64,000 bases of DNA from Bacteroidota bacterium (GTDB lineage Bacteria > Bacteroidota > Ignavibacteria > Kapaibacteriales > UBA2268). The notes under the pieces are model-generated. The model did not search any database. It had not been told where the DNA came from and saw only the letters and a program-made list of their open reading frames with translations. This document shows positions 4,353 to 50,199 of the stretch, in pieces. Position numbers and translations under genes: made by a program. Location: NCBI GenBank assembly GCA_004322215.1, contig SCSM01000020.1, forward strand, positions 1 through 64,000. Reading direction: 5' to 3'. The first letter of the stretch is position 1; every line of letters starts with the position of its first letter.

Positions 4353-4477
4353 AAATATTCTTATTCCTACCCTCCCTTTAATCCCCGGCACAGAATTTTT
4401 CTTTGCGGCGGCTCTCAGCTCTGCGGCTCCGCGTCTCTGTGTGCAACCAAAATTTCCCTTCCTGCGAGGAAGGGTCA

Positions 4478-4512
4478 GGTTGTAGTGCAACGGAAATCCC
4501 GATTCATCGGGA
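4478..4512 (+). repeat. 35-bp dispersed hairpin repeat, copy 1
   Basis: This 35-bp sequence recurs exactly at 5184-5218. Its last 16 bases form an inverted repeat, TCCCGAT and ATCGGGA around a 2-nt loop. Confidence 0.85.
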
Positions 4513-4527
4513 GTAGCTGTAAAAAAA

Positions 4528-4590
4528 TCAGCGAAAATCAGTTCCATCAGTGTAATCAGTGTACTATTAATTTGCTTCTCTGCGCTGAAA
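4528..4590 (+). repeat. Diverged dispersed element, copy 1
   Basis: It aligns over about 60 bp with 5641-5702. Shared words are ATCAG, TGTTCTA or TGTACTA, and TTTGC before a TGCG end. There is no coding content; it looks like decayed intergenic repeat DNA. Confidence 0.5.
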
Positions 4591-4601
4591 TAAAATACAT
4601 C

Positions 4602-4664
4602 CAATTGAAAATTAAATCATTAAAAAATTCATTTTAAATTTTAAATTTCAAATTTTAAATTCCT
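4602..4664 (+). repeat. Heptad-period repeat array, nine units
   Basis: Nine successive 7-bp units fill 63 bp. Most hold AATT at a fixed phase, for example AATTTTA then AATTTCA. Units vary, but the 7-bp step is kept. Confidence 0.75.
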
Positions 4665-4911
4665 CCTGCCTCCTTCGTGAAATAAAACCTTATTATCATA
4701 TATCCTTCAATCTTAGTAACAAACAAATCCCCCGGTTAACTTAACCTTATTTCCTTATTGAACGGGAAATAAAAAACAAAATAAGCTAATAAGGTTTGAT
4801 GTGTACCGGCTATTTTTTTCTACTAAGGTTTAGAGGATTTATATAAGGTTTTTTTATCTTGTCCATCCTTTAATCAAGAAAATCCTGTTCAGACAATTTG
4901 CGTGAAACCTT

Positions 4912-4946
4912 AATTGTGAATTGTTAATTATGAATTGTGAATTTCT
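4912..4946 (+). repeat. Heptad-period repeat array, five units
   Basis: Five 7-bp units each begin with AATT: AATTGTG, AATTGTT, then variants. The step of 7 is exact across 35 bp. Confidence 0.8.
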
Positions 4947-4993
4947 TGCCTACTTCCTTCTTCTGGCTTCCGACTCCCGACTCCCGACTATAT

Positions 4994-5034
4994 TTTTAAA
5001 ACCATTTTAAAATAATTTTAAAATCCTTTTAAAA
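4994..5034 (+). repeat. Four TTTTAAAA palindromes at an exact 11-bp step
   Basis: TTTTAAAA starts at 4994, 5005, 5016 and 5027, separated by three variable bases each time. An 11-bp step is close to one helical turn, so the four palindromes face the same side of the DNA. Confidence 0.85.
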
Positions 5035-5090
5035 CCGTTTTCTTGACATATCACTCCCACATCCTTATTTTTGCATTCCGTATGGTAAGT

Positions 5091-5110
5091 CCCTCTCCCA
5101 TTGGAGAGGG
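5091..5110 (+). repeat. Perfect 8-bp hairpin, dispersed-repeat type
   Basis: CCCTCTCC and GGAGAGGG pair perfectly around a 4-nt loop. The sequence after it (TTTAGGGTGAGG) is characteristic of a widespread decayed intergenic repeat. A diverged relative in the other orientation may lie at 45168-45198. No U-tract follows on either side, so it is not called a terminator. Confidence 0.6.
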
Positions 5111-5183
5111 ATTTAGGGTGAGGTTAAATCTTTGCACCGCTTGTTCTTTGCTAAACAATATCGGGCTGAATCCAGTCAATACC

Positions 5184-5218
5184 GGTTGTAGTGCAACGGA
5201 AATCCCGATTCATCGGGA
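5184..5218 (+). repeat. 35-bp dispersed hairpin repeat, copy 2
   Basis: Identical over all 35 bp to 4478-4512 in the same orientation, 706 bp downstream of it. Confidence 0.85.
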
Positions 5219-5227
5219 TGAAGTCTT

Positions 5228-5250
5228 ACGGAAATCCCGATTCATAGGGA
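5228..5250 (+). repeat. Partial third copy of the 35-bp repeat
   Basis: This 23-bp copy holds the hairpin half (ACGGAAATCCCGATTCAT, then AGGGA), with one mismatch in the right arm. It lies 9 bp after copy 2. Confidence 0.75.
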
Positions 5251-5320
5251 TATAAATGTTCGGGCTTTTCTTTCCCACTTTACTAAAGGGGGATTCAGGT
5301 GGATTATTCAATAATATAAC

Positions 5321-5355
5321 CACCATTCAACACTCAACACTCAACACTCAAAATT
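5321..5355 (+). repeat. Heptad-period repeat array, five units
   Basis: CAACACT occurs three times in perfect tandem at 5328-5348, flanked by CACCATT and CAAAATT in the same 7-bp phase. Confidence 0.8.
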
Positions 5356-5640
5356 TCTTAATCTTGTCACATTTTTTCACTTCAAAAGTGACATCACTAT
5401 GACAATTAGTGACATAACGTGACAAAAATTCCATATAAGCAATATTCTAACTCCTTACAAATCAATTTAATTTCTGGAGAGCAATACAAAAATAAAAAAA
5501 AGTGAGGCAAACTATGCAAAATGTGACATCGTACAAAAATGTACACTAAAAAAACCTTGTGAAAAATGTTCAAAATGAATAAAATTGTCCATTTTTGTTT
5601 CTATATAACCAAATTTCCCAATTTTAGGTTGAACCATAAA

Positions 5641-17157: not shown

Positions 17158-17183
17158 TAATCATTTACTGAAAGTTAATACTA

Positions 17184-20100
17184 TTAACGTACAACTGTCA
17201 TCTTACATGTTCTAATTTCATCACCGGCAACTAATCTTAAGATGTAAGTACCGGATGATACTTTGTTACCATTCTCATCTGTTCCGTTCCAATCAATATA
17301 CTTTTGTCCACTCTCTGATTTGTTAACTAAAGACTTAATAACATTACCATAAATGTCGAGTACATCGATTTTAACATTCTTATTATCAGGCAGATAATAA
17401 GCAATCTTAGTTGAGTTATTGAATGGGTTCGGAGCATTCGGCTCAAGAACTATATCGCCATTACCGTCAATAGTTAAAGTGACAATATTTGAATAGCTTT
17501 CGCAGGATTGAGTGCCATTAAGGTCGACCTGACGCAAACGATAATGATAAGTCTTTCCGTATTCAATATTATTATCAGTATAATTATAATCGGTAACTGA
17601 ATTAGTTGAACCCTGACCTTTTACAAATCCGATTGTATTCCATTTGTAATCGTCGTTATCAGCATCAACTGCTTTTTCAACATGGAATCCGTAGTTGTTC
17701 AATTCTGAAGCAGTTTCCCAGAACAAATCAACTCTGTTTCCACGAACCTGTCCGTTGAATGATGTTAATTCAACTGGAATGAAATCGGGGCATGGCTCAT
17801 ACTCAAGTGTTGTACCAAAAGTTCTTATTCCAAAGTATGGAGCAATCATCGGGATCCATGTACCTCTTGTATAAGTAGGTGTAGTTGTTGCATCAGGCAC
17901 CCTACCTCTGTATTCGAGGTGGCCGTAAGCCGGATTACCCTGTGTATTCATAAACGGATACCATGTATTGCTGCCCTTGGTGTTTTCATAAGCGAAAACA
18001 TTTAAGTTCAACAACTGCTCTGTTCTTGTCGCAGTTCTAAGGTTTTTATCGAGTATTAAGAAGATTGAACCGCTACCATTTTGGAACTGTCCGTCTCCAG
18101 GAGGATTTGAAGTATAAGTATCTGTTGTTCTCATAGCAACTCTGGATTTGGAAGCACCTAATTCAAGACCTGTTTCACCCTGCTGTGATACTGTCATCCA
18201 GTAACTGCCGGCTTGGAGGAACTTGGGCTGAGGTAACAAATAAGTTACATATTGATCCCAGAATGGCTTTTTGTCTCTTATATCGTCTAATCCTCTGTTC
18301 TTTGCTACTTCAGTACCCTCAACCATAGTTGACGGAAGTGTTAAACCATCATACAAAGAAAGCTGAACTATTTCACTCCATTGCTGGTTTAAAGGACCGA
18401 AAAATACTTTGTAACCAAAGATGGTATCTGCCTGGAACAATTCAAATTTCATTGCAATTTGTCCGGAACCGCTACCTGATTCTCTACCGGCTTCCCATTC
18501 TCTCTTATAACTTGGGTTGTCAGCGGCAGTAGTTGCGTAAACACCACCACCCATTGAGAATCCGTACATATTTAATCCTCTGCCGTTTAATGCACCAAAG
18601 TTACCTTCGGGAACATCATTTGTTCTGTTATCAGCCGGGTCATACTGGAAGCAATCACCGTATTTAACATCGAAGTCGTAATAAGTCGTGTCATTTAATG
18701 GCTCTAAGTCTCCACCGTCATAAGGAATAAATGTATTAGCAACAATCCTGTAGAGTCCGGGAGGAGTTTTCCTTGCATTCCAATCAGGGAACTTGATTTC
18801 TGTTTGTTCGCCTGCATGTAATGATGCCTGACTTTGTGAACGGCAATAAATAGCAGAATCATCAATTTGTGATTGACCGATGAATTTGAAAATTCTGACT
18901 TTCACCCAATATGCAGGAGCACTTGCACCTGTATTATTGCTGACTTTTACTCTAATAGGAATTGCAATCGCCTGAGAAGCAGGAGTTACAGAGTAAGGCC
19001 AAATAACTCTAACAGAATTACATTCTAAGTCAACTTCTTCCTCACCAGCAACGAGAATTCTGACATTATCCACATAAAACGGGTCATTATCATCAGGAAT
19101 ACCGGGTACAGCACCAAGCATTTGATTATCATCAGCCCAAACTTTTATTCTGAATCTGAAGTTAAATGCGCCTTCTTCGGGAGCTTCGATGAATCTATCG
19201 GGTATGGTCATAATGAACTTCTTGTATTCAGCATCTATACCATCATCGTAAACGTCATTTCTCAAACCGTGTTTTTCTCTCGTACCAGCATTATAAGCCA
19301 TAGGATATGCCTGGTTGTAATCTTTTTCATTATAACCGATAACATAACCGCCACCGCCATATAACCTGAGAGCGCCTGCATGTCCGTCGGGCCATGTTAC
19401 AGCTCCGGTTCCTTTTTGTGGTAATTCATTCCATGTCAAATCACCGCCATGGAGCCAGCAAATACCCTTAACTCTGTCGGGGCTTGATTTTGCATATTGT
19501 ACTAATATTTCATCGGCAGTAGCCGAACCGATACCAACAGTAGCAGCCCAGTTTCCACCTACAATCACTCTCTGTTCGCAACCGACTAATTCAGCATCGG
19601 CAAATCCTCTTTCCCAATCGTCACGTTTCAGTGACCTCTGAATGGAAATTGATAATACGGCTCCCTTCTTACCTGTCATATCAATCGGGTAAGAACGAAT
19701 TTCGTCACCGTTATCTCTAACCTGCGACGGCTGTGGATTTCTATCCATCAGTATTGCGGGTGATTGCATGAAATAATTTGCATAAAATAATGAATCATCA
19801 GCCATCCTTGAATTGTCTGCCTTGAATGAACCTCTTGGCGGAAGCGGATGCTGTGATACTTCATCGCCGTTTACAACATCAGCGTTAAACGTAACCCATT
19901 TTAACACAGATGGAATCGGAGAAGATGCACCGTTAATATCCTGAACAACATGATATTCGGTAACATCATCTTTGAATGTTACATCATTAGGAATTCTTCT
20001 CATAACGAAGAAACGAGTGCTTGTCGTATCGTCAAAGGGCCATTGATCGCCGAGTGTAATAAATCTGCGCAGAATTTCATCATAATATTGAGGTTCTGCA

Positions 20101-22121
20101 ATGATTCTCGCATGCATACGACCAATATGATTTTCAAATAATGGATTCGGTATAAATGGCGGGAAGAAAACTTCCACATATCCATAAGGAGGAATACCAT
20201 TAAGATTACTTGGTCCGGGATACGGATTCAACGAAGTTGCCAATGTTGTGAAATTGGTAACATGTACATACCTGACTTTTACATTGGGTACACCCATGCA
20301 AAGATTGTCCGGGTCCGGGTCGGGTAATGCCAAGCAATTATTATTAATAGGTACCGAACGGTTATAAATCGTTCTTAAAGTTGCCTGGTTATTAATCATA
20401 AACCTTGCTCTGAATGTTACATCCTGTTCCTGGTAGTTAATACCGTTGGGACCCTGAATATCATTTGTTAAATTCTGGAGCAAAGCAACCGGCTGCATAG
20501 CACCCAATTGTCTGTGACCGGCAAGAAATTCTTTATCGATAACCTGGTCAGCAGATTTTTCAACCTGGAATAAATCAGTATAAGAAGGATCCAATTCGGG
20601 AAGTTCTTGTCTGAGCATATACTTTATACCGATAACCCTAACAACATTTTTCCAGGATTTGAACTTCACAGCAACCGAAGCTTCCGGAATACCGAGGTCT
20701 TCCTGCGGATTACGATATTTATCAAAGTAATAAGTAGTCTGTTCATATTCATTTGTGTATGGGTAATACGGGTTACCTGTGCAAAGAGGTGGAACAGGTG
20801 CCGTTGGGTCTTTGGAATTAAAGTTAGAATGTCTTGCAAAACCGCGAACACCACAAGTTGTATTCCATCTGAATAAGAAATCAGAACGCCATGCAATATA
20901 AAATCCTGAACTTAAAATTCCTTCGAATTTTTCATAGGTAATTGTTATAGAACTATCTCTACGAGTCAAACACACCTGGGCATTTGCACCGAGATAGGCA
21001 TCTGCACCGTCATTAGGCCTGTGATTAATAGCGACATTATATGTACCGAATGGTGTTACTACACCACCCTTGAGCACTGCGTTTACAAAATAAATAATCA
21101 AGCTGTCACCTGATATTGATTTCTTATAATATGCTTTACCCCAATCTTCTGCTTTCATTGCAACAGGATTATATTGGGACAAATGCAAATCACCGAAGAA
21201 CGGTGCAATAACAGGTAATTTTGTATTCAACTGATGCAGTTCACCGCCGGCTTGCAGTATTGTTCCTGCATAGCCGCCCGGATTCGGACCTGTATGAGAA
21301 TTACCGAAGTTATAAACTGCTATATTAAATCCGAAATCGTCTGTAATCGGGTCGGCAGTACCATCTTCATCATTACAAATCGTAAGACTCCTGGAAGTTA
21401 CCCTGTCAGGATATCCGGCAGGAGTAGCGGCACCGGGACCAACAAACCAATCCATACTTTGGTAATCATAACAATGCTGAGCACCCTGAGGAGGAGTTCT
21501 CTCACCGAATGAATTGTAATAATATCTTCTGTTAGTCAGGGCAACGATACCATTTGTAGAAACATAAAAACTGTCATATCTTACGCCGTTGAAATAGAAA
21601 TCAAAGCCAATCGGCATAGGACCAGCATAAGCATTATCAGTTGTATCTACATCGTTCGGCTCGCCTAAAGTATAATCGAACCAGCTACCCGTGATGGGAG
21701 ATCCACTATTGGTCTTCCAGCTTCTGAAGAATGCAAAACCGTTTTCATGAGGCCAATAGCCCGGAGGTTGCTGATGCGGACCGGACAGAATACGTCTCCA
21801 CAGATTACTTTCAAAATTAGTATCAACTATGTTAGCAACAGGTCTCCATAAGCGGTAATCATTGACAACAACGTCACGATTATCCACGAAATAATATCCT
21901 GTTGATACGGCAGGATTAGTTTTTGGATATGGGTCAGTCGTCTGACCAAAGGGATAAGGATAGCTTGTTCGCCAAGGACCGAAGTAAGGATCCTCGACCA
22001 ACTGGCTTTTTCTGAGAATCTCATCCCCTCCTGCCGACTTGTTATCGCCTGCAGTCGCAGTAATCGAAAGGAATGCGCTGCATACGAAAACAAAAATTAG
22101 CAGTATCAAAAATTTCTTCAT
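17184..22121 (-). CDS. Giant secreted protein with C-terminal T9SS sorting domain
   Basis: The 1,645-residue product starts with a clean signal peptide (about 1-24) and ends in a type IX secretion sorting domain: EPNAPNPFNNSTKIAYYL, then a FlgD-like turn (ENGNKVSSGTYILRL) and a basic last strand (about residues 1565-1645). Before it lies a fibronectin-like module with VELTSFNGQVRGNRVDLFWE, common just ahead of such tails. The long body is rich in Tyr, Pro, Asn and Gly and has no catalytic motif I recognise. It should cross the inner membrane by Sec and the outer membrane by the SprA translocon. A strong ribosome binding site and its own terminator suggest high expression of a single-gene unit. 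A surface-layer or adhesive role is only a guess. Confidence 0.88.
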   Translation of the reverse strand: MKKFLILLIFVFVCSAFLSITATAGDNKSAGGDEILRKSQLVEDPYFGPWRTSYPYPFGQTTDPYPKTNPAVSTGYYFVDNRDVVVNDYRLWRPVANIVDTNFESNLWRRILSGPHQQPPGYWPHENGFAFFRSWKTNSGSPITGSWFDYTLGEPNDVDTTDNAYAGPMPIGFDFYFNGVRYDSFYVSTNGIVALTNRRYYYNSFGERTPPQGAQHCYDYQSMDWFVGPGAATPAGYPDRVTSRSLTICNDEDGTADPITDDFGFNIAVYNFGNSHTGPNPGGYAGTILQAGGELHQLNTKLPVIAPFFGDLHLSQYNPVAMKAEDWGKAYYKKSISGDSLIIYFVNAVLKGGVVTPFGTYNVAINHRPNDGADAYLGANAQVCLTRRDSSITITYEKFEGILSSGFYIAWRSDFLFRWNTTCGVRGFARHSNFNSKDPTAPVPPLCTGNPYYPYTNEYEQTTYYFDKYRNPQEDLGIPEASVAVKFKSWKNVVRVIGIKYMLRQELPELDPSYTDLFQVEKSADQVIDKEFLAGHRQLGAMQPVALLQNLTNDIQGPNGINYQEQDVTFRARFMINNQATLRTIYNRSVPINNNCLALPDPDPDNLCMGVPNVKVRYVHVTNFTTLATSLNPYPGPSNLNGIPPYGYVEVFFPPFIPNPLFENHIGRMHARIIAEPQYYDEILRRFITLGDQWPFDDTTSTRFFVMRRIPNDVTFKDDVTEYHVVQDINGASSPIPSVLKWVTFNADVVNGDEVSQHPLPPRGSFKADNSRMADDSLFYANYFMQSPAILMDRNPQPSQVRDNGDEIRSYPIDMTGKKGAVLSISIQRSLKRDDWERGFADAELVGCEQRVIVGGNWAATVGIGSATADEILVQYAKSSPDRVKGICWLHGGDLTWNELPQKGTGAVTWPDGHAGALRLYGGGGYVIGYNEKDYNQAYPMAYNAGTREKHGLRNDVYDDGIDAEYKKFIMTIPDRFIEAPEEGAFNFRFRIKVWADDNQMLGAVPGIPDDNDPFYVDNVRILVAGEEEVDLECNSVRVIWPYSVTPASQAIAIPIRVKVSNNTGASAPAYWVKVRIFKFIGQSQIDDSAIYCRSQSQASLHAGEQTEIKFPDWNARKTPPGLYRIVANTFIPYDGGDLEPLNDTTYYDFDVKYGDCFQYDPADNRTNDVPEGNFGALNGRGLNMYGFSMGGGVYATTAADNPSYKREWEAGRESGSGSGQIAMKFELFQADTIFGYKVFFGPLNQQWSEIVQLSLYDGLTLPSTMVEGTEVAKNRGLDDIRDKKPFWDQYVTYLLPQPKFLQAGSYWMTVSQQGETGLELGASKSRVAMRTTDTYTSNPPGDGQFQNGSGSIFLILDKNLRTATRTEQLLNLNVFAYENTKGSNTWYPFMNTQGNPAYGHLEYRGRVPDATTTPTYTRGTWIPMIAPYFGIRTFGTTLEYEPCPDFIPVELTSFNGQVRGNRVDLFWETASELNNYGFHVEKAVDADNDDYKWNTIGFVKGQGSTNSVTDYNYTDNNIEYGKTYHYRLRQVDLNGTQSCESYSNIVTLTIDGNGDIVLEPNAPNPFNNSTKIAYYLPDNKNVKIDVLDIYGNVIKSLVNKSESGQKYIDWNGTDENGNKVSSGTYILRLVAGDEIRTCKMTVVR

Positions 22122-22125
22122 AAGT

Positions 22126-22132
22126 TCACCTC
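22126..22132 (-). promoter_or_regulatory. Strong ribosome binding site for the giant T9SS protein
   Basis: The minus strand reads GAGGTGA, then 4 nt, then ATG at 22121. Shine-Dalgarno matches of this quality are rare in this window, where most starts have only A-rich leaders. Confidence 0.75.
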
Positions 22133-22265
22133 AAAGAATTAATAATACAAAAACAATTTATTAAGTTTTTTATACTTTTTTTAATTTTCACTTTCATCAT
22201 TTTATTAATATACGTGTTTTTTTTAAAGTTATAAAATAATTTTATTCAAATTTTATTAACCAAAT

Positions 22266-30139: not shown

Positions 30140-30220
30140 AATTAATAAGAATAATCTATAAGAAATCTGAATTCAGCTTTATAGAATTGTAATAAAATTA
30201 AAAATGAACAATATTGTATA

Positions 30221-31195
30221 TTATTCATGATTAAATAGTGCTTCTATGAAAGCAGTCGGTTCGAATACCTGAAGGTCATCAATCTTCTCCCCAACACCGA
30301 TATACCTAACCGGAAGCTTCAATTCATTGGCAATCGGAAGAATAACACCACCCTTTGCGGTGCCGTCAAGCTTAGTTAGAATAATCCCGGTCAAATTTGT
30401 TACTTTCATAAATTCTTTTGCCTGTTGAATGGCGTTTTGACCTGTTGTAGCATCGAGAATCAGAAAAACTTCATTTGGAGCATAATCTTTTACTTTTTTA
30501 AGTACCCTATTAATTTTTTCAAGTTCAGCCATCAGGTTCCCTTTATTATGCAATCTTCCCGCTGTATCAATAATAACCACATCAGTATTCTTTGAAATAG
30601 CCGAATTAAGAGTATCGAAAGCAACTGCAGCCGGGTCTGCTCCGGGTTTTTGCTGAATAATAGAAACACCTGCACGTTCTGCCCAGATTTCGAGTTGTTC
30701 ATTTGCAGCAGCACGGAATGTATCTGCAGCGCCTATTAATACTGATTTACCGGCATTCCGGTAATTATATGCAAGTTTGCCAATTGTGGTTGTTTTCCCG
30801 ACACCGTTAACACCAACGATTAAAATGCAATGCGGCTTTTTTGTTTCATCAATCGAATAATCATAATCATTATTTGCAGATGGAGATTCAAGTAAAATTT
30901 TGTGAAGCTCATCTTTCAAAATATTAAAAACATCAGCTGAATCTTCGTGTCCTTCTTTTTTGACCCGAAGTTTAATATCAGCAATAACCTGGTCGGTTGT
31001 CGATACACCAATATCAGATGAAATAAGAATATCCTCGATTTCATTAATAAGAGAATCATCTATTTTTCTGCCAATACCAAGAACACCCTGTATTTTATCA
31101 ACGAATGATGTTCTCGTTTTAGACAAACCGTCTTTTAATTTATCGAAACCAAATGCCGAACTAACTTTATCTTTGAATTTATCAAAAAAGCCCAT
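30221..31195 (-). CDS. ftsY: Signal recognition particle receptor
   Basis: FtsY docks ribosome-SRP complexes at the inner membrane and, with Ffh, uses GTP to hand nascent membrane proteins to SecYEG. The 324-residue product has a short N domain and the G domain: G1 GVNGVGKTT, then DTFRAAANEQL, G3 DTAGRLHNKGNL, G4 TKLDGTAKGG and the closing GVGEKIDDLQVF. The long acidic A domain of the E. coli protein is absent, as in most non-enteric bacteria. It is divergent from the AddA-like gene across a 151-bp spacer. Confidence 0.96.
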   Translation of the reverse strand: MGFFDKFKDKVSSAFGFDKLKDGLSKTRTSFVDKIQGVLGIGRKIDDSLINEIEDILISSDIGVSTTDQVIADIKLRVKKEGHEDSADVFNILKDELHKILLESPSANNDYDYSIDETKKPHCILIVGVNGVGKTTTIGKLAYNYRNAGKSVLIGAADTFRAAANEQLEIWAERAGVSIIQQKPGADPAAVAFDTLNSAISKNTDVVIIDTAGRLHNKGNLMAELEKINRVLKKVKDYAPNEVFLILDATTGQNAIQQAKEFMKVTNLTGIILTKLDGTAKGGVILPIANELKLPVRYIGVGEKIDDLQVFEPTAFIEALFNHE

Positions 31196-31204
31196 CTTAA
31201 TTAT

Positions 31205-39371: not shown

Positions 39372-39406
39372 TCAATTAACAATTAACAATTAGTAATTGA
39401 AAATTG
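39372..39406 (+). repeat. Heptad-period repeat array, about five units
   Basis: CAATTAA occurs twice in tandem, then CAATTAG and TAATTGA in phase, in the spacer directly before queA. The last unit's exact end is uncertain. Confidence 0.75.
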
Positions 39407-39418
39407 AAATTATATAAA

Positions 39419-40711
39419 ATGATACAACCTGATTTTATTCCTAAAGTAAATATAGATGAATACCATTATGAACTTCCAAAAGACAGAATTGCTGAATATC
39501 CATTAGAAGACCGTTCAGCAAGCAAACTTTTATATGCAGATGTAAAAACAAAGAAAATTACACACCATAAATTTTATGAATTAGCTGAATTATTACGCTC
39601 AGATACACTTTTAGTGATGAATACAACAAAAGTGATACCTGCAAGAATTTTTTTAAAAAAACCAACCGGTGGAATAATAGAATTGTTATTGGTTGAACCG
39701 GCAAATTTTAATCTAAATGAAATTGCGGTTAATAAAGTGAGTAAGAATAGTGACCCGCAGATTGCCCTGCTTTCAAAAGGTGAAAGCTGTTGGTTGTGCA
39801 TAGTTGGCGGAAAAAGAGTAAAAGAAAAAATGTTGCTCAAAGAAAATTACGGTGATGATTTTACAATTACAGCTGAAATTTTAAGTAGAAGAGAAAACGA
39901 AGCAATTGTTAAATTCAGATGGTTGCCCGATAACATTACATTTTCCGAAATGTTATTAAAAACAGGTAAAGTACCCTTACCACCATACATAAACAGAGAT
40001 GTCAGATTGGAAGATAAGAAATGGTATCAGACAGTATATGCAAAAGCCGATGGCTCGGTCGCAGCACCAACTGCGGGTTTCCATTTTACAGATGAAATAT
40101 TAAATCAATTAAAAAATAAAAATATTATTACAGAAAATATCGTTCTACATGTTGGACCCGGAACATTTACGCCGATTGATGTTGATGATGTATTCAGGCA
40201 TGAAATGCATTCTGAAAGAATTAGTATTTCATTAGATTCGATAAACAATATAATCAAGTATTTAAGGAATAATGAAACAAAAGGATTAATTGCTGTCGGA
40301 ACAACGACACTCAGAACTTTGGAATCATTATATTGGATTGGTTGCAAAATTTTATTTAATATATATAATGAAAATGATATATTTACATTGAATCAATGGG
40401 ATTCGTATGAAATAGAAGCTAAATATGAATTACCTGATTCTTTAGAATCATTAAAGTCAATTATTAACTTTTTAACAGAAAAAAATCAAACTGAAATAAC
40501 AGCAAAAACAAGTTTATTCATCATTCCGGGTTATAAATTCAAAATTGTAAATGGATTAATAACAAATTATCATTTACCGAAAAGTACTCTGATTCTTCTT
40601 GTTGCTGCATTTACCGGAAAAGAATTATGGAGAGAGATATATAGTTCTGCACTTAATAATAATTATCGTTTTTTAAGCTATGGTGACTCTTCTTTAATTA
40701 CGAATTACTAA
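39419..40711 (+). CDS. queA: S-adenosylmethionine:tRNA ribosyltransferase-isomerase
   Basis: QueA moves and rearranges the ribosyl group of S-adenosylmethionine onto preQ1 in tRNA, giving epoxyqueuosine. The ATG at 39419 gives 430 residues, the longer form seen in Bacteroidota. Family motifs: YELPKDRIAEYPLEDRSASKLL at the start, VMNTTKVIPARI, GKVPLPPYI, SVAAPTAGFHFT, HVGPGTFTPI, and ITNYHLPKSTLILLVAAF. A TTG in the same frame at 39404 is a possible but less likely start. The last codons (Ile-Thr-Asn-Tyr-stop) are written by two units of a heptad repeat that continues downstream. Confidence 0.95.
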   Translation: MIQPDFIPKVNIDEYHYELPKDRIAEYPLEDRSASKLLYADVKTKKITHHKFYELAELLRSDTLLVMNTTKVIPARIFLKKPTGGIIELLLVEPANFNLNEIAVNKVSKNSDPQIALLSKGESCWLCIVGGKRVKEKMLLKENYGDDFTITAEILSRRENEAIVKFRWLPDNITFSEMLLKTGKVPLPPYINRDVRLEDKKWYQTVYAKADGSVAAPTAGFHFTDEILNQLKNKNIITENIVLHVGPGTFTPIDVDDVFRHEMHSERISISLDSINNIIKYLRNNETKGLIAVGTTTLRTLESLYWIGCKILFNIYNENDIFTLNQWDSYEIEAKYELPDSLESLKSIINFLTEKNQTEITAKTSLFIIPGYKFKIVNGLITNYHLPKSTLILLVAAFTGKELWREIYSSALNNNYRFLSYGDSSLITNY

Positions 40712-40737
40712 TGATGCATAACTAATTGTGATTCATT
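40696..40737 (+). repeat. Heptad-period repeat array overlapping the end of queA
   Basis: AATTACG and AATTACT start the array inside queA; the stop codon lies where the second and third units meet. Four further units follow in phase, the fifth being AATTGTG. Confidence 0.75.
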
Positions 40738-40790
40738 ATTTTTGTAAGAATGTTTAATTTTGACAGAATTAATTGGAGAAAAATCAAATA

Positions 40791-40818
40791 AGATTCTTCG
40801 CTTTGCTCAGATTGACAA
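40791..40818 (+). repeat. 28-bp dispersed element, copy 2
   Basis: Diverged copy of 5771-5798 in the same orientation. It ends 9 bp before the mtgA start, so it occupies the mtgA leader. Confidence 0.7.
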
Positions 40819-40827
40819 TGAATTAAT

Positions 40828-41511
40828 ATGATTAGGAGATTATTTAAGATTTTATTTTGGTGTGTAGTAAGTTTTTTTATTTATTCTATACTGATTGTTG
40901 TATTATATAAATTTGTTTCTCCGCCGGTTACACCGGTAATGATAATAAGGGTTTTCGAGGGATTATACGAAGGGAAATTAGTTGGAATCACCTATACGTG
41001 GAAGTCATATAATGATATTTCACCTAATATGTTCAGGGCAGTAATTTCTGGTGAGGATGCACGTTTTATGAGGCACGAAGGTATAGACTGGAAGGCAGTC
41101 AGAACAGCACAAAGATATAATGAAATTCATAAAGGGAAAAAAAAACACGGTGCTAGTACTATTACAATGCAGACGGCAAAAAATGCATTCTTGTGGCACG
41201 GAAGAAATTATGTACGTAAAGGATTAGAAGTGTATTTTACTTATCTGATTGAATTCGTTTGGGGAAAAAAGAGAATCGCAGAAGTATATGTTAATATTGT
41301 TGAATTTGGTGACGGGATTTATGGAGTTGAGTCGGCATCGCAGGAATTTTTTAAAAAACCGGCAAAGGATTTGACAAGAAGACAAGCTGCATTATTGGCA
41401 GCCGTACTTCCAAATCCTCACAGGTGGTCTCCCGCTGGACCGTCTAAATTCATAGAAAGCCGGGTAAAGTTCATCCAGGGAAGAATGAATTCCGTACAAA
41501 TACCAAAATAG
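40828..41511 (+). CDS. mtgA: Monofunctional peptidoglycan glycosyltransferase
   Basis: MtgA joins lipid II units into glycan strands at the outer face of the inner membrane. The 227-residue product has one N-terminal membrane anchor (about 5-28) and a GT51 domain: the catalytic Glu76 in SGEDARFMRHEGIDW, HGASTITMQTAKNAFLW, KKRIAEVYVNIVEFGDGIYG, and RRQAALLAAVLPNPHRWSP. There is no transpeptidase domain. Length matches the family (about 230). It lies between queA and mutS on the same strand with gaps of 116 and 47 bp. Confidence 0.95.
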   Translation: MIRRLFKILFWCVVSFFIYSILIVVLYKFVSPPVTPVMIIRVFEGLYEGKLVGITYTWKSYNDISPNMFRAVISGEDARFMRHEGIDWKAVRTAQRYNEIHKGKKKHGASTITMQTAKNAFLWHGRNYVRKGLEVYFTYLIEFVWGKKRIAEVYVNIVEFGDGIYGVESASQEFFKKPAKDLTRRQAALLAAVLPNPHRWSPAGPSKFIESRVKFIQGRMNSVQIPK

Positions 41512-41518
41512 GATAAAA

Positions 41519-41553
41519 AATTATAAATTTTGAATTTTAGATTTTGAATTGTG
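41519..41553 (+). repeat. Heptad-period repeat array forming the mutS leader
   Basis: Five units including AATTATA, AATTTTG and AATTGTG lie in exact 7-bp phase and end 5 bp before the mutS ATG. Confidence 0.8.
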
Positions 41554-41558
41554 GTTAA

Positions 41559-44213
41559 ATGAAAGAAAAAGAAACACCGTTGATGAGGCAATACAGCCAA
41601 ATGAAAAGCAAATATCCTGATACGATTTTGCTTTTTCGGCTTGGTGATTTCTTTGAAACTTTCAATGAAGATGCAGTTACAACTTCCAAAGTGTGTGGTA
41701 TAACTCTTACCAAAAGACATAACGGCGCTGCTGGAGAATGTCCCTTGGCAGGGTTTCCCCACCATCAACTCGATGCATATCTTCCGAAATTAGTCAGAGC
41801 TGGCTATCGGGTAGCAGTATGCGAACAACTCGAAGACCCGAAACAAGCAAGAGGTATAGTCAGAAGAGGTGTTATTGAAGTTGTTACACCGGGTGTAGCG
41901 ATGTATGACAAACTTCTCGAGTCAAAGAAGAATAATTATGTATGCGCAATTGTTCTGAATAACTCCAATACTAACTTTATAGCTGGAATCGCTTGTGCAG
42001 ATGTATCCACAGGTGAATTTATCGTATCTGAATTTTCAGCTCATTCCATTTTGCAGGTTCTCGAAACACTAACGCCATCCGAAATAATAATCAGTAAAGA
42101 ACAAAAAAACGAGTTAACCGGAATATTAAATAAATTATCTTATAATCCGCCGATAACAAAACTCGAGCCATGGATTTTTGACAGTGAATTTGGAAGAGAA
42201 GCACTACTCGGTCATTTTAAAACACAGAATCTAAAAGGATTCGGTATTGATGATTATACTGAAGGTATTGCATCAGCAGGTGCTATTCTTCATTATATCA
42301 AAGAAACTCAAAACGGAGAAATCAGTCACCTGAAAAAAATCTCGATATATAATCCATCTGAATTCATGCTCCTGGATTATGCAACGAAAAGAAATCTGGA
42401 AATTACATACTCGATGTTTGAAGGAACAAAAGAAGGCAGTTTAATATCAATTATTGATAAAACCTGTACCCATATGGGCGGTAGATTATTGAAAAAATGG
42501 CTGACAAGACCGCTTCTTAATATCGAACAAATAAAGAAGCGTCTGTCTGCTGTCCGGGCAATTTATGAAAATGATAATAAAAGAAATTCTCTTAGGAGTA
42601 ATTTATCTGAAATTGCCGATATTGAAAGATTGATTTCAAAAATCTGTACCGGAAGGGCTAATCCGAGAGATATAGTGGCATTAAAACAAAGCTTATCGAA
42701 AATTCCCGATATAAAAAATCAACTTGGTGAATTTGATTCACAACCGTTGAATTCTTTGGTTAAAAGATTTGAAGATGTCGAAGAAGTAGTTAATTTGATT
42801 TCAAAATCACTCGTAGATGAACCTTCTGTACAACTTGGAACGGGAAATGTTTTCAGGCATGGATTTTCTTCAGAACTCGATTCCTATATTGATGCAAAAC
42901 TTTCTGCAAAAGAATGGGTTAATAATTACCAGGAAAATGAAAAGCAGTTAACAAACATACCATCTTTAAAAGTAGGATTCACTTCAGTTTTCGGATATTA
43001 TATTGAAATTACAAATGCACACAAAGATAAAGTACCAACTCGATATGACAGGAAACAAACATTGACTAATGCTGAAAGATACACTACGCCGGATCTAAAA
43101 CAATTTGAAGAAAAGATACTTAATGCCGAAGAAAAAATCCTGAAATTTGAACAGGACTTGTTCCAAGAAATTAGAAATAAAATCACAGTTTACACTGAAA
43201 GGATTCAGAATAATGCTGACACACTTTCAATTTTAGATTGTTTGCAAAATTTTGCCGAAGTAGCAAAAGAAAACAATTATAATGAACCGGAAATAGATGA
43301 ATCGGAGAGTATTGAAATAATTGAAGGCAGACATCCCGTTGTCGAAAAATTACTGCCGCTTGGAGAAAGCTTTCATCCAAACTCGACAAAACTGGATACA
43401 AACATCGAGCAGATTCATATAATAACAGGACCGAATATGTCCGGAAAATCCTGCTACCTGAGACAAGTCGGATTGATTGTATTACTTACACAAATTGGTT
43501 GTTTCGTTCCAGCAAAAAAAGCAAAAATAGGTCTTGTTGACAGGATATTCACAAGAGTCGGAGCTCAGGATAACATTACGACAGGTGAAAGCACATTTCT
43601 TGTTGAAATGCAGGAAGCGGCTAATATTATGAACAATGCTACTTTTAAAAGTTTGATTCTACTCGATGAAGTCGGCAGGGGAACAGCCACTTATGACGGT
43701 ATTTCAATCGCATGGGCAATAACTGAGCACATACATGATACGATTGGTGCAAGAACACTTTTTGCCACTCATTACCACGAATTGAATGATATTGCAAACA
43801 GGTATGACAGGATAATTAATTACAAAGTTGAAGTTGTCGAGGCGGGTGATACAATTATTTTCTCACACAGGGTAATGCCCGGTACGAGTGACCATTCATT
43901 CGGAATACATGTCGCACAAATGGCAGGACTTCCTACCGAAGTAACAGGCAGAGCAAACATAATAATGAAATCACTTGAAGATGGCAGTAAGGAAGATAGT
44001 AATGCTGATATTAAAACAAAACAAACAGATACTAAAAGAATTGAAGTAAAAAAAGCAAGACACATTCCCGACCAGCTTGCAATTTTTGAATTCAGGGATG
44101 ATTTGCTCAGAGAACAGATACTTAAAATAGATATTAACAGCTTGTCTCCACTTGAAGCATTGAAAACTTTAGCTGCGATGCAGAAAGAAGCAAAGAAAAA
44201 AATTAATAATTAA
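41559..44213 (+). CDS. mutS: DNA mismatch repair protein MutS
   Basis: MutS finds mismatches and small loops in new DNA and calls MutL. The 884-residue product keeps the mismatch-reading F-x-E in GDFFETFNEDA near residue 30, the connector and lever regions, and the ATPase: Walker A GPNMSGKS at about 624-631, STFLVEMQEAANI, LLDEVGRGTATYDG, and FATHYHELNDIA. A C-terminal tail holds a likely tetramerisation helix. The final residues Lys-Ile-Asn-Asn and the stop are written by a heptad repeat that runs on into the spacer. speB follows after 28 nt. Confidence 0.97.
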   Translation: MKEKETPLMRQYSQMKSKYPDTILLFRLGDFFETFNEDAVTTSKVCGITLTKRHNGAAGECPLAGFPHHQLDAYLPKLVRAGYRVAVCEQLEDPKQARGIVRRGVIEVVTPGVAMYDKLLESKKNNYVCAIVLNNSNTNFIAGIACADVSTGEFIVSEFSAHSILQVLETLTPSEIIISKEQKNELTGILNKLSYNPPITKLEPWIFDSEFGREALLGHFKTQNLKGFGIDDYTEGIASAGAILHYIKETQNGEISHLKKISIYNPSEFMLLDYATKRNLEITYSMFEGTKEGSLISIIDKTCTHMGGRLLKKWLTRPLLNIEQIKKRLSAVRAIYENDNKRNSLRSNLSEIADIERLISKICTGRANPRDIVALKQSLSKIPDIKNQLGEFDSQPLNSLVKRFEDVEEVVNLISKSLVDEPSVQLGTGNVFRHGFSSELDSYIDAKLSAKEWVNNYQENEKQLTNIPSLKVGFTSVFGYYIEITNAHKDKVPTRYDRKQTLTNAERYTTPDLKQFEEKILNAEEKILKFEQDLFQEIRNKITVYTERIQNNADTLSILDCLQNFAEVAKENNYNEPEIDESESIEIIEGRHPVVEKLLPLGESFHPNSTKLDTNIEQIHIITGPNMSGKSCYLRQVGLIVLLTQIGCFVPAKKAKIGLVDRIFTRVGAQDNITTGESTFLVEMQEAANIMNNATFKSLILLDEVGRGTATYDGISIAWAITEHIHDTIGARTLFATHYHELNDIANRYDRIINYKVEVVEAGDTIIFSHRVMPGTSDHSFGIHVAQMAGLPTEVTGRANIIMKSLEDGSKEDSNADIKTKQTDTKRIEVKKARHIPDQLAIFEFRDDLLREQILKIDINSLSPLEALKTLAAMQKEAKKKINN

Positions 44214-44235
44214 AAATTCATATTAACAATTTAGA
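44201..44235 (+). repeat. Heptad-period repeat array overlapping the end of mutS
   Basis: AATTAAT and AATTAAA begin inside mutS, whose TAA stop (44211-44213) falls in the second unit. Three more in-phase units follow, ending 6 bp before the speB start. Confidence 0.7.
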
Positions 44236-49900: not shown

Positions 49901-50171
49901 CGGGAACTCATCAATTTCAAACAGGAACGAGAATCAGCCGCCTTCAATACTCGACAGGTGCAATTATATCGTTTGGGGTGTTTGGGCAACTTCGTCAGAT
50001 GCTACACAAACTCAAAAAGAAGCATACAAAATTGTAGTTGATGAATTCACGCCGGTTTATAATAATTTGAAAAGAATTGTTGAAACTGAACTGAAAGGAA
50101 TTGAAAAGGAGATGGACCGTCTTGGTGCCCCGTGGACACCAAATAGGTTTCCTGAGTGGAAGGGAGAATAA
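46911..50171 (+). CDS. Exported BNR/sortilin-like beta-propeller protein
   Basis: The 1,086-residue product has a signal peptide (about 1-22) and many Asp-box/BNR repeats (YKTTDGGKNWEKI, YKSIDGGKSWTNM, YRSTDRGASWEKR, LKSTDKGQTWTSI) spread over about residues 30-720, the pattern of VPS10/sortilin-like ten-bladed propellers. A charged linker near 780-830 is followed by an Ig-like FlgD-type domain (about 840-930) and a helical tail. Such proteins are often annotated as glycosyl hydrolases, but no catalytic site is evident here. No T9SS tail is seen, so it may stay in the periplasm. A terminator follows. Confidence 0.85.
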   Translation: MKKASLIVLFIILPFCLNTFAKDKPKEKDTTDLMASSVFSGLKLRLVGPGLTSGRIVDIAVNPKNHSEYYLAVACGGVWKTTNAGQTFSPVFDGQVSFSIGCVTIDPNNPYVVWVGTGENNSQRSVSYGDGVYKSIDGGKSWTNMGLKKSEHIGKILVDPRNSNVVYVAAQGPLWGPGGDRGLYKTTDGGKNWEKILNISDNTGVSDIVFDPRCPDVIYASSYQRRRHVWTLIDGGSEGAIYKSVDAGKTFDKLTNGLPGGYVGRIGLAVSPVNPDIVYALIETADEKGGFYRSTDRGASWEKRKTYSTPGAQYYQEIVCDPKNADKVYSLETIFQVSEDGCKTFRPVGNKHKHVDDHAVWIDPDDTKHLIVGCDGGLYETFDMDNWRHVDNLPVTQFYRITADNSEPFYYVYGGTQDNSTWGGPSRTTNSGGITNDEWFLVVGGDGYKSMVDPIDPNIVYGEFQYGGLVRFDRKSGEGMFIQPQPDKGEAHRWNWDTPLLISPHSNIRLYFAANKLFRSDDRGNTWTAISPDLTRQIDRNQLKVMDKVWDAEAVAKNVSTSLYGNIVALTESPVKENLIYIGTDDGLIQVTEDAGKNWRKIDKFEGVPETTYVSEVFASQHNENVVYAAFDNHKNNDFLPYVLKSTDKGQTWTSIAGNLPKNGAVYTIQEDYINPDLLFVGTEFGLFFTIDGGKKWIQLKSGMPPIAVRDLELQKRENDLIVGTFGRGIYILDDYTPLRTLKQEQLEKEAFIFPVKDALMYVLDDSKAKHDLGETFYRADNPPFGAVFTYYLKDSYKTKKDLRKEEEKEAEKNKTSIKYPTLEQLTQEDLEEAPYLIFTITDESGYIVRKLKTSASKGINRISWDLTYPSPYPADEKTDPNKQNGMPVLPGKYKVYVSKSINGEITQLTEPIEFNCKVLKNATLPAKDRKELVEFQKKVANSQKVIYAITNILSETKKEVKLVKTTLMASEGTPKELLEKTRKIELELNDINTSLYGNSSISNRNENQPPSILDRCNYIVWGVWATSSDATQTQKEAYKIVVDEFTPVYNNLKRIVETELKGIEKEMDRLGAPWTPNRFPEWKGE

Positions 50172-50199
50172 AATTATAAATTTTAAATGTTGAATTGTG
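50172..50199 (+). repeat. Heptad-period repeat array, four units
   Basis: AATTATA, AATTTTA, AATGTTG and AATTGTG follow directly after the stop of the propeller gene. It closely matches the array before mutS and is followed by the same GTTAAA. Confidence 0.8.

Follow-up and report, generated by a model that had tools for sequence, protein, structure and literature searches.

Heptad arrays at gene ends of a Kapaibacteriales bacterium and the C-terminal tails of QueA and MutS

Heptads are reportedly the most abundant of the longer units among long simple sequence repeats, an observation that both MacGregor and Rehm ascribe to a general survey by Mrazek and colleagues in 2007, which is said to have proposed an origin by polymerase slippage. 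Heptamers of the sequence TAACTGA are described from marine Beggiatoaceae and from some Cyanobacteria and Bacteroidetes, and in BOGUAY 13 open reading frames (ORFs) carry such repeats over their stop (MacGregor 2015, PMC4679880). The GGGANTN or GGGGA(C/T)T heptads of Xanthomonas and Nostoc are reported to lie within 50 bp of a stop on the coding strand, with some overlapping the stop itself (Rehm et al. 2015, PMC4692102). The overlap of heptads with stops has thus been published, and both papers describe the abundance of heptads among longer bacterial simple repeats as unexplained (MacGregor 2015, PMC4679880; Rehm et al. 2015, PMC4692102). The arrays considered here were found in a window of 64,000 nucleotides, the whole stretch of DNA that was analysed (positions 1 to 64,000 of contig SCSM01000020.1, assembly GCA_004322215.1), from a Bacteroidota bacterium of the order Kapaibacteriales, where degenerate 7-bp units run over the stops of queA and mutS (Table 1). 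The arrays at these two genes are part of a genome-wide feature, and comparison with close relatives suggests that such arrays sometimes write the last residues of a protein and shift its stop.

Heptads over the queA and mutS stops

The units at the end of queA are AATTACG (40696-40702), AATTACT (40703-40709), the degenerate AATGATG and CATAACT, and AATTGTG (40724-40730), all in a common 7-bp phase, and the TAA stop occupies 40709-40711. At mutS, the units AATTAAT (44201-44207), AATTAAA (44208-44214) and AATTCAT (44215-44221) are followed, after a one-base slip, by ATTAAC and AATTTAG, and the TAA stop occupies 44211-44213. Since both stops are positioned within the heptads, the terminal ITNY of QueA and the terminal INN of MutS are coded in heptad register. 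The continuation of the heptads through both stops, as described in the first-pass annotation, can therefore be read directly in units and phase for both genes, apart from the slip at mutS and the weakness of each run when taken singly (discussed below).

The ends were compared between the window's own genome (G000; 4.2 Mb in 47 contigs), its congeners G001, G002 and G003, and more distant relatives, including G018 of a different genus and G021, an array-poor member of the family (0 matches to AATTNNN x4; guanine-plus-cytosine [GC] content 0.340) that served as the same-GC comparison. Arrays were measured by a lag-7 score, the significance of which was taken from 2000 dinucleotide shuffles per end. 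MutS ends in KINN with heptads over the stop in 4 of 4 congeners (G000-G003), every sampled congener with this ending carries the array, the last mutS codons are in array register in all of them, and the scores of the mutS ends were reached by 2, 18 and 0 of 2000 shuffles in G001, G002 and G003, respectively. The MutS of G015 ends in KKSDK with no change in tail length, and that of G010 is one residue shorter.

The QueA tails are more varied. Following a conserved SSL, the protein ends in ITNY in G000, in ITNYEL in G001 and G003, and in ITNF in G002. A strong array crosses the queA stop in G001 and G003 (0 of 2000 shuffles in each), and the end in G002 has no detectable array (1764 of 2000). 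When aligned by codons, the TAA of the window stands opposite GAA in G001 and G003, where it is followed by TTA and TGA, and the extra EL of these two proteins is array DNA. No ancestral state is claimed for the queA tail because the branching of G002 has a support of 48. Beyond the four congeners, an array score of at least 8 was found at queA in three genomes (G011, G015 and G018; 33 genes), in each case downstream of the stop. The genome of the window holds two QueA-like genes, that of the window (39404-40711) and another at G000:C27:33217-34248; the window copy is the longer and more divergent, and second, weaker matches occur in many relatives.

Arrays and stops across the genus

The sample of gene ends covered 430 kb in G000, 494 kb in G003, 448 kb in G002 and 83 kb in G001, and any ORF of 100 aa or more was taken as a gene, with no trained gene finder involved; C29:64001-104000 proved not to be syntenic with G003:C15. 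The pattern AATTNNN x4 is matched 187, 337, 196 and 431 times in G000, G001, G002 and G003, compared to 2, 1, 3 and 2 times at 8-bp spacing and 4, 22, 8 and 10 times for the reversed pattern. It has 0 matches in 7 of 20 same-family genomes outside the genus and in 13 of 16 same-order genomes outside the family. As in heptameric repeats generally, head-to-tail units of 7 bp are commoner than those of other periods. Most arrays scoring at least 12 in the 430 kb of G000 are mostly intergenic (41 of 49), and 28 of 86 arrays scoring at least 10 in this sample lie in called coding sequence (CDS). Units of other sequence also occur, such as at least six AAGTCGG directly 3' of a stop in G003; in G018, queA is followed by an AATGGTC array with a score of 40.

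These arrays favour stops over starts. A lag-7 array of score at least 10 touches the stop at 132 of the 1013 gene ends sampled in the genus, a rate that may be inflated in G002 and G003, the contigs of which were partly picked through matches to window DNA; the control lags of 4, 5, 8, 10, 11 and 13 gave 16, 13, 21, 7, 17 and 11 at the same ends. Stop-touching arrays are present at 27 of 286 ends in G000 alone, a sample not picked in this way, and at 3 of 251 ends in G021. Starts in the genus carry 58 lag-7 arrays against 131 at stops, part of the 58 arising from short gaps in which a single array touches both ends, and G018 has arrays at 24 of 241 stops and at 5 starts. The lag-7 excess is greatest in the first 28 nt past stops and slight ahead of starts. 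Of the 94 arrays in same-strand gaps of at least 150 nt, 27 are no more than 10 nt away from the stop and 8 no more than 10 nt away from the start. In 37 of 134 cases the 5' edge of the array coincides with one of the stop positions 0 to +2, and for 16 of 108 arrays the stop triplet agrees with the in-phase unit in each of its three bases, compared to 3.2% of other rotations. Arrays reach at least 4 nt into the CDS at 43 of 1014 gene ends, against 3-12 for control lags. Their sites are also held in common, as a congener array of score at least 12 is matched by one of at least 10 at the orthologue in 34 of 53 pairs, over a background of 13%.

A further example of variable tails, encoded outside the window and met by following ends in INN, is a 441-aa protein with a flavin adenine dinucleotide (FAD)-binding domain. 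It ends in VTKS in G010 (score 4), in VTKRINN in G015 and in G002 (score 7 in the latter, with no clear array), in VTKKINN in G003, in VTKRIHNE in G000 and in VTKNELTVNNSQLTF in G001, and the protein of G018 ends in VIGN immediately ahead of an array. The tails span 1-12 residues, mostly over array DNA, and their differences, like those of QueA, are by comparison in register with it. At one codon GAA in G000 is aligned with TAA in G003, and two extra bases in G001 shift the frame such that the array is translated for twelve residues; this last tail needs care, as one contig of the G001 assembly has a coverage of 1.8. The DNA underlying the predicted C-terminal peptide NELTVNNSQLTF wants confirmation by deeper reads. 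Those stop shifts that can be aligned resemble a base change or a +2 frameshift.

Across 97 ortholog families, and under an overlap condition chosen post hoc, the stop has shifted in 8 of 13 families with an array entering the coding end compared to 12 of 84 others (Fisher 0.0006), and in 1 of 16 families where arrays are downstream only. The ending INN is found at 7 of 43 array-overlapped ends, four of them mutS orthologues, against 1 of 972 others. As a general signature of arrays this ending was kept for MutS and the FAD-binding family and dropped for LigA and a protein with a type IX secretion system (T9SS) sorting tail. A 714-aa BNR/YCF48-like protein with such a tail (L184:16273-18414) has 73 matches in G000.

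Possible origin of the arrays and alternative readings

The preferred reading, to which a probability of roughly two in three is assigned, is that 7-bp slippage arrays are filtered by selection, survive chiefly 3' of stops and, on entering the last codons, set both the tail and the stop. Degenerate 7-bp arrays, mostly AATTNNN, would arise through copying or slippage in 7-bp steps and would persist where coding or start-site constraint does not purge them, chiefly immediately 3' of stops, with the stop triplet often belonging to a unit. Because 7 cannot be divided by 3, translation along an array would pass through all three frames, and a stop would arise wherever the variable bases of a unit spell TAA, TGA or TAG. 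An array in the last codons would thus fix the final residues together with the stop. Within such an array, a single base change or a small indel could displace the stop by one codon or several, at a cost that is presumably low because C-terminal tails are tolerant. The comparisons show the period of 7, the anchoring at stops, the array sites common to congeners and the in-register tail differences of QueA and the FAD-binding protein; we infer the slippage origin, the role of selective filtering in the anchoring and the functional neutrality of the tails.

Several observations weigh against this reading or against the first-pass interpretation. Lag-7 arrays at starts, if fewer than at stops, still exceed the 9-15 found there at control lags, and under filtering alone arrays should also be tolerated midway along long gaps, where the excess is smaller; only convergent gaps look more even. 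The MutS stop is unmoved in the genus and the G015 tail has the same length. The ITNF of G002 stands without a detectable array, QueA ends in IYNF in G012 (score 2) and in LLNY in G005 (score 5), and the 33 QueA genes include tails of between 2 and 20 residues at array scores below 8. Dropping the overlap condition leaves the family test with 9 of 29 against 11 of 68 (p 0.11); keeping it with the array score set to 12 or 15 gives p values of 0.029 and 0.084, respectively. Array writing also does not fit the INN-ending LigA, the length of which is unchanged in 6 of 6 relatives, or the T9SS-tail protein, a relative of which in G003 ends in KINN at a score of 7. Steps of whole units are near chance, since 3 of 15 orthologous gaps with arrays in both differ by a multiple of 7 in a comparison made between strains far apart, and multiples of 7 are not in excess among 94 orthologous gaps (13 of 64 where neither gap has an array).

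The proposals of the first-pass annotation are modified accordingly. It had derived the C-terminal residues of both proteins from repeat DNA, which agrees with the heptad register of ITNY and INN; the QueA endings ITN[YF], IYNF and LLNY also occur without arrays, and therefore these four residues need not derive from the array. The same tail in relatives lacking arrays had been named as the outcome that would speak against this derivation, and such an outcome is in part seen for queA through G002, G012 and G005. That arrays can move stops is supported where the array crosses the queA stop in G001 and G003 and the protein ends in ITNYEL, and not at mutS. The expansion of arrays into gene ends finds no support in the gap lengths.

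It is unlikely that the queA and mutS tails are ordinary AT-rich ends that drift like any C-terminus and resemble heptads by chance beside unrelated intergenic repeats. The congener ends of both genes are mostly strong arrays in the same register, INN is scarce away from array-overlapped ends, the FAD-binding protein presents several tails over related array DNA at a single gene end, and the signal is peculiar to period 7 and missing in the same-GC relative G021. This explanation nevertheless accommodates the two ends of the window, the lag-7 scores of which (8 at queA and 10 at mutS) were reached by 38 and 149 of 2000 dinucleotide shuffles and are weak alone, as well as the array-less QueA ends, the stop shifts in the 12 of 84 families with no array entering the coding end, and the queA difference of just one base, GAA against TAA.

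The main rival, which is considered quite improbable, holds the arrays to be a selected post-stop element serving as a three-frame backstop against readthrough or frameshift, as an unstructured linker to the next start, or as both. Stop triplets within arrays downstream of stops number 449 on the coding strand and 312 on the other (3884 positions, n = 126, p 7e-5), an excess that comes partly from counting the gene's own stop, the figures for arrays at least 20 nt away being 352 and 296 (n = 74, p 0.025). A stop is met within 30 nt in frames 0, 1 and 2 at 69, 78 and 68% of ends with arrays compared to 61, 56 and 55% of those without, and TAACTGA repeats are described as yielding stops in all three frames (MacGregor 2015, PMC4679880); common units such as AATTACG and AATTCAC, however, have no forward stop, and a survey of eubacteria reports no selection for extra stops (PMC6764699). 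A linking role would suit those same-strand arrays of the G000 sample (7 of 29) that begin at a stop and finish within 11 nt of the next start, but convergent gene ends are equally array-rich though they have no downstream start. It is more doubtful again that the 7-bp period at stops is itself selected, combining three-frame stops with a bridge to the next start, the unit being free to vary and C-termini being rewritten genome-wide. Between species, a wholesale replacement of units was also entertained from striking single cases and was set aside as a general claim, as the aligned identity of 0.79, inflated by free gaps, exceeds the self-similarity of 0.64 in the unselected orthologue (41 ordered pairs).

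Within the window, 14 segments score at least 12 at lag 7 compared to 0-3 at other lags from 4 to 15, the exception being the harmonic lag 14 with 11. Besides those at queA and mutS, arrays at the ends of four other genes are listed in Table 1, and that at 39373-39409 exemplifies the gap-filling kind that runs from one stop to the next start. The orthologous ends of gene 30221-31204 score 13, 10 and 18 in G001, G002 and G003, and its tail is FN[HSN]E in all. The region 4430-5620 is an intergenic repeat, dispersed and multi-copy, that is matched many times in each of the three congeners; within it are heptad arrays and, at 4994-5041, an 11-bp tandem repeat. Positions 1-128 have 92-96% matches to the ends of several G001 contigs and, because of where these matches fall, probably mark the border of a repeated element at which assemblies break. 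For 17179-22184, each of the three congeners has a second similar stretch besides the syntenic one.

Table 1. Genes and heptad arrays of the window discussed in the text
Feature	Position	Strand	Details
Weaker heptad run over stop of gene 30221-31204	30194..30232	-	orthologous ends in G001, G002, G003 score 13, 10, 18
Strong array directly after secA stop, extending to queA start	39373..39409	+	0/2000 shuffles; arrays at same place in G001, G002, G003
queA (tRNA preQ1 ribosyltransferase-isomerase)	39404..40711	+	ORF; 435 aa, C-terminus ITNY; NCBIfam NF001140 and TIGR00113 over cut-off
Heptad run over queA stop	40696..40730	+	2 clear, 2 degenerate and 1 further in-phase unit; score 8
Strong array between mtgA stop and mutS start	41513..41553	+	0/2000 shuffles; arrays at same gene end in G001, G002, G003
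mutS	41559..44213	+	ORF; 884 aa, C-terminus KINN; NCBIfam NF003810 and TIGR01070
Heptad run over mutS stop	44201..44234	+	3 in-phase units, then one-base slip; score 10
Array beginning at stop of 1086-aa gene	50171..50195	+	1/2000 shuffles

Comparison with described heptad systems

With arrays at about one in ten gene ends and array-poor relatives of similar GC within the same family, this lineage allows slippage and selection to be compared directly, and it offers concrete cases in which repeat DNA has seemingly turned into a protein tail. As described by MacGregor (2015, PMC4679880), the TAACTGA system has in common with these arrays its intergenic 7-bp direct repeats, their overlap with stops and protein ends coded by repeats, and its repeats vary between close strains. 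That system is described as having a single fixed unit situated mostly just ahead of starts, whereas the units here are variable and stops are favoured; tandem TAACTGA was found 0 times in the samples of G000-G003, G018 and G021.

The GGGANTN heptads, as portrayed by Rehm et al. (2015, PMC4692102), likewise combine a fixed core with variable bases, lie near or over stops on the coding strand, and recur at shared genes of two species, where they vary in length and sequence. They are reported to be G-rich, quadruplex-forming and present also near starts on the other strand, whereas the core here is AATT. In the G000-G003 samples, GGGANTN pairs number 5, 0, 2 and 3 compared to 52, 28, 76 and 134 for AATTNNN x3, and the arrays are not of the G-rich type. 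In long gaps, 34 of 87 arrays with the coding strand as the G-richer one lie within 10 nt of the corresponding stop, compared to 10 of 60 in the opposite orientation. Two broader rules were tried and set aside: that an array stands beside its 5' ORF in any orientation, after Rehm, which gave 73 of 128 in long gaps (p 0.13) and is unsupported beyond stops, and that the G-richer strand is the coding strand in same-strand gaps, which gave 88 of 132, little over the background of 792 to 488.

A further likeness is to the tandem repeats of Borgs, archaeal extrachromosomal elements, which are described as creating new protein regions and as being likewise fast-evolving and residue-adding (PMC9879509). 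Set beside these systems, and as far as the literature searches go, what appears to be new is the lineage, the AATTNNN family of units, the anchoring at stops relative to an array-poor relative, and the evidence from orthologues for protein ends set by arrays.

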